Source of the DNA: Clostridiales bacterium
GTDB lineage: Bacteria > Bacillota > Clostridia > Caldicoprobacterales > UBA3941
NCBI GenBank assembly: GCA_012518535.1
Contig: JAAYRX010000027.1
Coordinates: 1 to 52,709 of the forward strand
Direction of reading: 5' to 3'
DNA: 52,709 nt
The position numbers and the translations under genes are program-made. Shown here in pieces: positions 37,570 to 40,282 of the stretch. The notes beneath the pieces are model-generated. The model searched no databases. It was not told the DNA's origin and saw nothing but the letters and a program-made list of their open reading frames with translations. The number at the start of each line of letters is the position of its first letter. Within the stretch, counting starts at the first letter, position 1.

Positions 37570-38196
37570 ATGAGTGACCTGGCTGATTATGAGTTGTTAA
37601 TAAACAAGATTCCTGGTATCATCTCTTCCCGATTTGTTACCAACTCAGATAATGAGATCATTGAAATTCACGTATTAGCGAACATCTATCGCTCACCAAA
37701 ACAGCTGGTTAGGGATATCCAATCGGCCATGCTAACTACATATAATGTAAAAATCGATCACAAGATCATAAGTGTCGCTCAAATAGATGATGGGGTAACA
37801 GGCCCTAGAGAGCAAAGGTTCAACCTGCATTATGTAAAAGTACTTTCGGAGGGACCCAAGTCCCAAGTCGAGGTGATCCTATTAAGGGATGATGAATCCT
37901 TCTTGGGGGTAGCTCAAGGAGGAAACTCTTTAGGTAGTCGCATGCGTTTATTCTCCGAAGCTACCTTAAATGCTATACAAAATGCCTTGGGTATTGAGTA
38001 TGTGTTTATCCTGAATGACGTTACCTCTGTTAGTATATCAGGAAATAAAGCATTTATGGTAACCGTATCCCACCTTTTCGAGTTAGGTGAGGAATTATTA
38101 TGCGGCTGTTGTATCGTTACCAAGGACGAAAATGAAGCTGTGGTGAAGGCAACTTTAGACGCCATCAATCGCAGAGTTGTCAGATACTTTAAATAA
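37570..38196 (+). CDS. Conserved two-domain protein of unknown function
   Basis: A 208-residue soluble protein. The N-terminal domain (YELLINKIPGIISSRFVTNSDNEIIEIHVLANIYRSPKQLVRDIQSAMLTTYNVKIDHKIISVAQI) has a beta-alpha-beta look, like small metal- or ligand-binding ferredoxin folds. The C-terminal domain (VEVILLRDDESFLGVAQGGNSLGSRMRLFSEATLNAIQNALG ... AVVKATLDAINRRVVRYF) resembles a dimerising regulatory domain. I recall proteins of this two-domain plan in both Clostridia and Actinobacteria, without a known role. The GTG at 37561 is part of the AGAGGTG ribosome site; the ATG at 37570 is the start. First gene of the module with the peptide, HD-GYP and DUF5317-like genes. Confidence 0.8.
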   Translation: MSDLADYELLINKIPGIISSRFVTNSDNEIIEIHVLANIYRSPKQLVRDIQSAMLTTYNVKIDHKIISVAQIDDGVTGPREQRFNLHYVKVLSEGPKSQVEVILLRDDESFLGVAQGGNSLGSRMRLFSEATLNAIQNALGIEYVFILNDVTSVSISGNKAFMVTVSHLFELGEELLCGCCIVTKDENEAVVKATLDAINRRVVRYFK

Positions 38197-38255
38197 CGCC
38201 ATTAATAGGCCAAACCATCTATAGATACCTTCATTAATCCAATTTAATAGCGGAG

Positions 38256-38300
38256 CGGATATGGCCTGTCTGACTAGCCGATGACAGAGATTAGATTAGG
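38256..38300 (+). other. Possible structured leader of the peptide gene
   Basis: Upstream of the peptide ribosome site, GGC/GCC and CTGTC/GACAG pairings around 38262-38287 interlock in the manner of a small H-type pseudoknot, in a stretch richer in G and C than its surroundings. I could not match it to a known riboswitch class. Confidence 0.3.
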
Positions 38301-38313
38301 AGGCTATATCTAA

Positions 38314-38403
38314 ATGAAAAAGATAGCAGTTAAGGTTTTAGTTGCACTGTCTGCATTACTTTCTTTGATACTTGCTGGCGGCGCTAGCGTAGGTTGGTAT
38401 TAA
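38314..38403 (+). CDS. 29-residue hydrophobic peptide, possible signalling peptide
   Basis: A TTAGGAGG site 10 bases upstream of the ATG strongly suggests translation. The peptide has a basic start (MKKIAVKV), a hydrophobic core (LVALSALLSLILAGG) and ends ASVGWY followed by TAA. The shape is that of a signal-peptide-like or AgrD-like precursor: AgrD-family autoinducers carry a basic amphipathic leader and then a ring segment such as AS-x-x-G-x-Y followed by an acidic tail. Here the ring-like end is present with Ser instead of Cys, but the acidic tail is missing and no AgrB-type protease is in the window. It lies inside the inverted repeat and just before a multi-spanning HD-GYP protein. A role in signalling is inference. 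Confidence 0.65.
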   Translation: MKKIAVKVLVALSALLSLILAGGASVGWY

Positions 38404-38445
38404 TCTATTGGTTTGGCCTATTCTTGTATAGAAAGGTGTTGAAGT

Positions 38446-39744
38446 ATGGATAAAAAATCAAAAACCTTCCTCTCGTTTATTATTTCCTTCGGTATTCTCA
38501 TCCTGGGTTTTTGTATATACAAAATTTTAGGACAAGTCAGGTTTATTGACATCTTATATTGGATGCTCCTGGCCGGACTTTGTCAATCCTTCTTAGTGGT
38601 ATTCAATAAGGACCGATATGTAAGTGTGGTGTTTGCAATAATATTTGCGGTCCAACTCAACTATGGCACATATCATAGTGTGATAATAGCTGCGGGGAGC
38701 CAAGTTTTCTTTGTGTACAAGGAAAGGCCCCAAACCTATAGGCATGTTTTCAGTGTACCCCTGTATAAGACTCTTTTTAATGTAGCAAATGTTAGCATAT
38801 CGGCTTTCATATCGGGATCAATCTTGGAGTTATTATCCAGAGCATATGATCTTAACATAAGGATGTTTGCCTTTACCATTCTTATGTTAATCTACACACT
38901 TTCCTATGCTCTGTTAAACACCGGAATACTCATGAGCCTCATGTCACTCTTAAACAGAGATTCATTTTTTAGGCTTTGGTTCAGCCTAATGTCCTGGATA
39001 TTGCCGAATTTTGCTGCCATCGCACCTTTCGGATACCTTATTGCCCTCTTGTATAATCAACCTCAGGGAAAGATTTATATCGCCTTGTTGGTAGGGCCGC
39101 TGCTGTTGGCTCGTCATTCCTTCCAATTGTACCAAAATTCCAAAGAGCTATATTACAAGACGGTTAAAGCCCTGACAGCTGCTATAGAAGCAAAAGATCC
39201 CTATACAGAAGGCCACTCGCGCAGGGTCGAAGGATATGCCCGCCAAATTGCAGAAGAGCTCAAACTTGATAAAGCCACCATTCATTCTATAGAGGTGGCT
39301 GCCCTTCTCCATGATATAGGCAAAATAGGAATTAACGATTCGATTCTAAATAAAAAGGCGGTACTCAACGATTCAGAGTATTCCCAAATACATGAACACC
39401 CTATAATAGGTCTGAAAATCTTGGAGGATATTGAGCTGCCCCTCAAAAGCAAGGATATAATAAAATTTCATCATGAAAGATATGACGGTAAAGGATATCC
39501 AATGGGGCTAGGTGGAGATCAGATCCCCTTAGAGGCATATATTCTTTCTGCTGCTGATGCATATGATGCCATGACATCTAATCGCCCATACAGAGAGGCG
39601 ATGGCGCCAGCAAGAGCAGCTGAAATACTGATTAAAAACAGCGGTACTCAGTTTCATCCGACTGTTGTGAATGCCTTCACCAAGGTACTGGATTATAGAA
39701 TGGTAAATAATCAAAAAAGGGAAACGGTAGACAATGTTGGTTGA
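38446..39744 (+). CDS. Multi-spanning membrane HD-GYP domain protein (likely cyclic-di-GMP phosphodiesterase)
   Basis: HD-GYP proteins hydrolyse cyclic-di-GMP (some act on cGAMP). The 432 residues comprise about seven N-terminal membrane spans up to residue 225, a short linker (QNSKELYYKTVKALTAAIEAKDPYTEGHSRRVEGYA) and a complete HD-GYP domain: His289-Asp290 in ALLHDIGKIGIND, HHERYDGKGYP from His342, and ADAYDAMTSNRPYR. The membrane part has no known ligand-binding signature I can name; it may sense a membrane or extracellular signal. AAAGGTG lies 7 bases before the ATG. It overlaps the DUF5317-like gene by 11 bases, so the two are coupled. Confidence 0.9.
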   Translation: MDKKSKTFLSFIISFGILILGFCIYKILGQVRFIDILYWMLLAGLCQSFLVVFNKDRYVSVVFAIIFAVQLNYGTYHSVIIAAGSQVFFVYKERPQTYRHVFSVPLYKTLFNVANVSISAFISGSILELLSRAYDLNIRMFAFTILMLIYTLSYALLNTGILMSLMSLLNRDSFFRLWFSLMSWILPNFAAIAPFGYLIALLYNQPQGKIYIALLVGPLLLARHSFQLYQNSKELYYKTVKALTAAIEAKDPYTEGHSRRVEGYARQIAEELKLDKATIHSIEVAALLHDIGKIGINDSILNKKAVLNDSEYSQIHEHPIIGLKILEDIELPLKSKDIIKFHHERYDGKGYPMGLGGDQIPLEAYILSAADAYDAMTSNRPYREAMAPARAAEILIKNSGTQFHPTVVNAFTKVLDYRMVNNQKRETVDNVG

Positions 39745-40282
39745 AAGCTTAATAATTGGTGTAGTAACGGGTTATCTAAGGGGTGGAAGGATCCACCGCA
39801 TTTCTAAACTTAATCTGAAAGCTTACTACCTGCTTTTTATAGCTGTAATTATAGAGTTAACTCTTAACTATGTCTTAATTGGTCATAATGATCTAATTCT
39901 ACAAAGTCATTCTCTCCTTGCAGTTGTAATTCAATATTTGCTTATATTTGTTTTTATAGGCCTTAACTTAGATAAACCCTATACCTGGCTAATAGGAATA
40001 GGTATTTTACTTAATTTTATCGTAATCACTGCCAACTTCGGTGCTATGCCGGTATCTGCTCAAATCTTGGATTTGGCAACTCCGTCGAAGAAAATGATTC
40101 TACTTGGAGAAGGTAAATTCTATACTTATAAACTGGTGGAGTCCGGCGTACGACTATGGTTTTTGGGTGATATTATTCGCATTTCCTTCCCCCTACGGCA
40201 GTTTATAAGTATAGGTGATATATTTCTGTCTGTGGGCGTTTTTATGTTAATCCAAAAATCCATGTTAGAGCCTAAAACGTGA
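39734..40282 (+). CDS. DUF5317-like integral membrane protein
   Basis: A 182-residue protein with about five hydrophobic spans (ESLIIGVVTGYLRGG, YYLLFIAVIIELTLNYVLI, LAVVIQYLLIFVFIGLNL, WLIGIGILLNFIVITANFGAMPVSA, SIGDIFLSVGVFMLIQK). The ANFGAMPVSA motif, the later LGDIIRISFPLRQFISIGDIFLSVG block and the size fit what I recall of the DUF5317 family. Translation is probably coupled to the HD-GYP gene through an 11-base overlap, suggesting the two membrane proteins work together. It ends 20 bases from the convergent lipoate ligase gene. Function unknown. Confidence 0.8.
   Translation: MLVESLIIGVVTGYLRGGRIHRISKLNLKAYYLLFIAVIIELTLNYVLIGHNDLILQSHSLLAVVIQYLLIFVFIGLNLDKPYTWLIGIGILLNFIVITANFGAMPVSAQILDLATPSKKMILLGEGKFYTYKLVESGVRLWFLGDIIRISFPLRQFISIGDIFLSVGVFMLIQKSMLEPKT

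Follow-up and report, generated by a model that had tools for sequence, protein, structure and literature searches.

The window, i.e., the whole stretch of 52,709 nucleotides of Clostridiales DNA that was analysed, contains an intergenic gap between the end of one gene at 38196 and the start of the next at 38446. The gap is occupied by two inverted-repeat arms and a peptide gene, as an earlier, sequence-only reading had noticed, and the peptide frame and its Shine-Dalgarno (SD) sequence were correctly placed by that reading. A conserved RNA core at 38249-38310 had been overlooked. The features of the locus are the following:

37570-38196, + strand: stand-alone gene for a 208-aa protein predicted to resemble the LeuA regulatory domain, upstream neighbour of the unit
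38204-38217, + strand: 5′ arm of a long-range closing stem, exact complement of 38409-38422
38249-38257, + strand: AGCGRAGCG, a conserved, unpaired element at the 5′ border of the RNA core, near-invariant in 61 loci
38258-38266, + strand: 5′ strand of helix P1, covarying with 38302-38310
38267-38270, + strand: 5′ strand of helix P2, and potential anti-Shine-Dalgarno strand too (covariation with the P2 partner; alternative pairing with the SD that is equally or more stable and disappears on swapping the P2 strands)
38275-38281, + strand: P2 loop, UAGCGRA (UAGCCGA in the window), with AGC near-invariant in the alignment
38283-38286, + strand: 3′ strand of P2, followed by a conserved GAG (38287-38289)
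38296-38303, + strand: SD TTAGGAGG, read from the sequence, its last GG lying within P1
38302-38310, + strand: 3′ strand of P1, assigned by covariation and ending 3 nt 5′ of the start codon
38314-38403, + strand: open reading frame (ORF) of a 29-aa peptide MKKIAVKVLVALSALLSLILAGGASVGWY of membrane/signal type, with GGA and then five residues including an aromatic one
38409-38422, + strand: 3′ arm of the closing stem, exact complement of the 5′ arm
38446-39744, + strand: gene of a membrane HD-GYP phosphodiesterase, whose N-terminal ~230 aa may have an ECF S-component-like fold
39734-40282, + strand: gene of a DUF5317 membrane protein (Pfam DUF5317, 4.2e-34), starting within the last bases of the HD-GYP gene

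The protein encoded upstream is predicted to adopt the fold of the LeuA/CMS regulatory domain. In the window copy the Pfam LeuA_dimer match falls below the cut-off, and the family is matched at E<=0.1 by 10 of 48 homologues. The AlphaFold2 model (pLDDT 93) finds LeuA (E 2.8e-5) and the LiCMS regulatory domain (E 2.3e-4) as its best Foldseek matches, with a TMt of 0.59 to 3f6g; a sequence search of solved structures returned none for this protein. A dsRNA-binding fold was also considered for it and set aside, the Foldseek matches being of low TM only. The downstream protein is assigned as an HD-GYP phosphodiesterase from its HD and HHExxDGxGYP motifs, with a complete set of catalytic residues: it matches Pfam HD_5 at 2.8e-38, its residues H257, H289 D290, K293, H318, H342 H343, G350 Y351 P352 and D371 are invariant among 45 homologues, and its model (pLDDT 91) matches a c-di-GMP-bound HD-GYP structure (Foldseek E 1.7e-11). 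The N-terminal domain (38446-39139) is composed of helices, and Foldseek aligns it with S-components at TMt up to 0.67 (TmRibU) and a probability of 0.99-1.00. Since the corresponding E values are 0.2-0.6, this likeness is only suggestive of a small-molecule sensor resembling an ECF S-component and fused to the c-di-GMP phosphodiesterase.

A conserved, covarying RNA sits on the SD of a conserved microprotein gene. The core was found first in relatives of the HD-GYP gene, where it lies in the same gap, just 5′ of the peptide ORF, and it was described by a covariance model, R1, of 63 positions and 14 pairs. Across 61 aligned matches 95.2% of the cells are standard pairs in an alignment fitted to the model, and two-sided changes occur in 12 of the 14 pairs. 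In the same model-fitted alignment double-change cells number 120 vs. 32.3 in shuffles, none of 500 shuffles reaching 120, and pairing drops to 37–55% when the partner is slid by 1–3 columns. A seed alignment made with MAFFT only, with fewer sequences, agrees (96.8% paired; 8 double-change cells vs. 1.6). Three unpaired stretches are near-invariant: AGCGRAG (5′ end), AGCG (P2 loop) and GAG (past P2). In nearly every locus P1 incorporates the last two Gs of the SD and stops 0–5 nt short of the start codon. It departs from this pattern in three loci of one family, f2 (L083, L084 and L085), where it has no complementarity to the SD region, and in L008, where this complementarity is partial; the three f2 loci retain the core, P2 and the arms despite the loss. 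A second copy of AGCGRAG is present about 20–40 nt 5′ of the core in L142, L162, L166 and L171, as if the element were doubled. No Rfam covariance model matched window positions 38150-38500 at E<=5, and among 15 relatives none matched at the RNA core, two weak and unrelated matches lying elsewhere. Sigma-70 promoters adjoining the element, sense or antisense, were not enriched.

The 5′ strand of P2 is able to pair with the SD instead of its P2 partner. This strand almost always reads pyrimidine-purine-pyrimidine-pyrimidine-pyrimidine, and in the same sequences the pairs of P1 flip orientation. To compute the alternative fold, the 3′ strand of P2 was barred from pairing, and sequences with the P2 strands swapped, so that P2 was kept, served as the control. 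In 98% of loci, vs. 66% of the strand-swapped ones, the energy of the alternative fold comes within 3 kcal/mol of that of P1+P2, and this fold pairs at least 3 of 4 SD bases in 72% vs. 20%. For the window core, folded as a single sequence, the minimum is the SD-blocked fold (-20.7 kcal/mol vs. -12.9 for the consensus P1+P2 fold), so that the P2-formed state would need help here. These computed folds suggest a two-state translational switch. When P2 is formed, most of the SD would be free, and when the 5′ strand of P2 lies on the SD instead, translation would be blocked. The state would be chosen by a factor at the conserved unpaired AGCG elements, either a metabolite or a protein, e.g., the LeuA-like protein; both this direction and the triggering signal are put forward as proposed features of the design.

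The two arms, 38204-38217 (AATAGGCCAAACCA) and 38409-38422 (TGGTTTGGCCTATT), are exact, 14 nt long, 100% complementary and 191 nt apart. A Markov-1 simulation predicts 0.025 perfect 14-mer inverted repeats with a spacer of 30–260 per window. One other, overlapping inverted-repeat cluster is present in the window, at 40120-40214 inside the DUF5317 gene (perfect, ~16 bp, spacer ~63 nt). The best stem between the sequence preceding the core and the sequence past the peptide stop was compared with shuffles; it exceeds their 99th percentile in 53 of 57 loci. Its mean score is 32.1, whereas shuffles average 15.2 and mismatched combinations, with the 5′ flank of one locus and the 3′ flank of another, average 16.5. 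The arm sequence depends on the lineage (GGCCAAACC, AAGCCAAAACATCG, GGCCGACA, GACCGGCAT and others) and has its exact complement each time. The earlier suggestion of a long RNA stem thus holds, pairing being kept in those 53 loci while the sequence differs between lineages. A switch operated by pairing of the 5′ arm (AGGCCA) with a P1 strand (TGGCCT) can be drawn by eye in the window; it is absent in relatives and was rejected.

The peptide ORF directly follows the core in 60 of 61 RNA matches, the remaining one being at a contig end. The family spans 20–34 aa, with lengths clustering at 25 aa and the consensus MKKIxxILxTLLSLVLAGGAxFxWx, to which the L178 peptide fits poorly; Pfam and NCBIfam hold no family that matches it. 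Pairs of close relatives, which are not independent, give pooled values of pS 0.50, pN 0.14 and pN/pS 0.28, as fits a genuine translated gene, and by this measure the peptide family is under purifying selection. A peptide subtype, MFKFKKVSPTLLYIITIISLVLSGIAGMKWG, precedes a related (paralogous) HD-GYP gene in three loci (L101:1206, L102:3012 on the minus strand and L103:1119), and an HMM trained without these members detects it (E 6e-4 to 7e-3). The three loci have neither the RNA core nor the upstream gene, and the related peptide still stands 5′ of the HD-GYP gene; the link between the peptide and the HD-GYP protein thus appears not to depend on the RNA.

The distribution of the unit was followed by searching R1 in 391 genomes of the class, 399 of the phylum and 26 of a second class, which gave 39, 17 and 11 positive genomes, respectively, in overlapping sets, with one match per positive genome and never more. 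Counting R1 matches, order-level loci and seven diverged copies, the RNA-peptide unit is found in about 70 genomes of 27 families in one phylum. Around the 61 RNA matches the upstream gene is present in 58 and an ORF of HD-GYP length lies downstream in 57, and wherever both sides are readable the unit stands between the LeuA-like and HD-GYP genes. Of 30 genomes of the order, 17 have both the upstream gene and a full-length HD-GYP gene, and the other 13 are without both. At E<1e-50 the upstream gene was detected in 46 of the 391 class genomes, each time adjoining the RNA-peptide unit; these 46 comprise the 39 class genomes in which R1 matched and seven with a diverged RNA and peptide.

The explanation that we favour, with a probability of roughly one half, is a membrane microprotein whose translation the RNA controls and which modulates the c-di-GMP phosphodiesterase encoded next to it. 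The RNA would set the translation of the peptide as described above, and the long-range stem would delimit or terminate the peptide message and thus set it apart from the flanking genes. The peptide would insert in the membrane with its lysines inside and its aromatic C-terminus outside, and would modulate the adjacent HD-GYP enzyme via the membrane sensor domain. The adjacency of their genes speaks indirectly for a partnership of the two; if the peptide does modulate the enzyme, the switch would thereby adjust c-di-GMP. Our confidence falls along this chain, from translational control of the peptide by the RNA, which is the firmest of these proposals, through the membrane nature of the peptide and its action on the HD-GYP protein, to control by a metabolite or the LeuA-like protein.

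An unlikely alternative is that the peptide is the leader peptide of an attenuator and matters only while it is being translated: a ribosome pausing at the conserved C-terminus or stop codon would cover the 3′ arm, prevent the long stem and so control the HD-GYP gene at the level of transcription or translation. The distance from the peptide stop to the 3′ arm fits this idea in many loci (4–14 nt; 5 nt in the window) and amounts to 20–45 nt in other lineages, where it speaks against it. Similarly, a T-run follows the 3′ arm in some loci, most clearly in family f4, so that the arm can act as a terminator there, but the window and most loci have no T-run. Peptides with lengths clustering at 25 aa would fit wholly in the exit tunnel, yet amino-acid conservation is not confined to the C-terminus but extends over the hydrophobic stretch too. 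In addition, what by eye looks like an ordinary hairpin-T-run terminator splits the peptide from the HD-GYP gene in L101 and L103, as in a stand-alone transcript.

It is rather doubtful that the peptide is the precursor of a secreted pheromone, which would be cut past the conserved GA to release a C-terminal pentapeptide, with the HD-GYP membrane domain or another protein as its receptor. The layout of the peptide is suggestive of such processing: a K-rich start and a hydrophobic core of 14–17 aa lead to GA, and past the last GA (or SA) exactly five residues remain in 45 of 60 peptides and four to six in 53. The possible resemblance of the HD-GYP N-terminal domain to ligand-binding S-components points the same way, as does a match of one member to Phr signal regions; this match, however, is sub-threshold (E 0.1) and involves the signal-peptide part alone. 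Moreover, the pentapeptide is poorly conserved apart from its aromatic residue, short transmembrane proteins that end in an aromatic residue have the same appearance, and no dedicated protease or exporter was seen directly beside the peptide gene. More doubtful still is the extended form of this idea, a phylum-wide circuit in which the RNA switch would govern a precursor whose extracellular pentapeptide, read by the S-component-like HD-GYP domain, would directly set c-di-GMP.

Folded messages of type I toxins (hok, aapA and others) encode a small hydrophobic peptide and combine end-to-end pairing with a blocked SD. The unit resembles them in its small, K-starting hydrophobic peptide, its SD that may be blocked and its paired ends, and one could imagine a toxin-like peptide, with the fold of the message and an antisense RNA keeping that message silent. 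This reading is improbable, since throughout the phylum the unit occurs once per genome and keeps its gene neighbours, and antisense promoter-like sites downstream of it are not in excess over shuffles (56 loci, mean z 0.12).

A mobile cassette, proposed earlier from the perfect repeat around one gene, or a MITE-like insertion bounded by terminal inverted repeats of 14 bp, can be dismissed: the site is constant, the copy is one per genome, the arms are lineage-specific, and the RNA and peptide are present in 46 of 46 upstream-gene loci among the 391 class genomes, with no empty site between the flanking genes, so the arms are not the ends of a cassette. An AgrD-type cyclic autoinducer would fit the small size and the short basic-hydrophobic N-terminus, and the earlier reading had likened the peptide's end to the AgrD ring segment, with a serine in place of the cysteine. 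This possibility is rejected as well, since the serine is not conserved (22 of 60 peptides have Ser or Cys among their six C-terminal residues; Cys occurs in 1 of 60), six Asp/Glu in all 60 peptides together make no acidic tail, the genome of the window (85% complete) gave no match to PF04647 (AgrB), and, as stated above, the domain databases do not recognize the peptide.

Under the preferred reading of an RNA-controlled membrane microprotein, the RNA core would behave as translational riboswitches do: it is a conserved structured leader with covariation, it has conserved unpaired nucleotides and, by its computed folding energies, it may form two exclusive helices, one of them blocking the SD. 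It differs from them in that the controlled gene is a microprotein gene and not that of a transporter or enzyme, and in that the core is not in Rfam. The closest parallel for its position is the odc1 uORF motif, in which a conserved short ORF 5′ of the main gene encodes a peptide and has its ribosome-binding site within P1 (PMC8632094), an arrangement shared by the RNA core. The odc1 peptide has 11 aa, and the two start codons of that motif lie close together (PMC8632094), whereas in the window there is a separate gene of a hydrophobic peptide of 25–30 aa, enclosed by a long-range closing stem and followed by the HD-GYP gene. The raiA motif RNA, or ModT, is also a structured RNA of Bacillota linked to c-di-GMP control and was described as noncoding (PMC11706538); it is a separate Rfam family with no match here, and an embedded peptide is unmentioned for it (PMC11706538).

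In the open-access literature searched, no description of the RNA-microprotein locus was found. An RNA and a microprotein beside a c-di-GMP phosphodiesterase, in about 70 genomes and 27 families, are missing from Rfam, Pfam and NCBIfam, which is an example of how a short ORF within a conserved RNA escapes annotation. If the proposed mechanism holds, the locus would provide a new riboswitch candidate and a new peptide partner of HD-GYP enzymes, as well as a way to learn what these bacteria sense through their membrane HD-GYP proteins.

Two minor observations concern the upstream side of the unit. A gene that by eye resembles that of the hpf-like ribosome hibernation factor lies just 5′ of the LeuA-like gene in L146, L148, L150, L152, L153, L159, L165 and L171. 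In L221 (G384:C7:12296-12889) the LeuA-like gene contains one in-frame TAA, and the RNA and peptide are kept.
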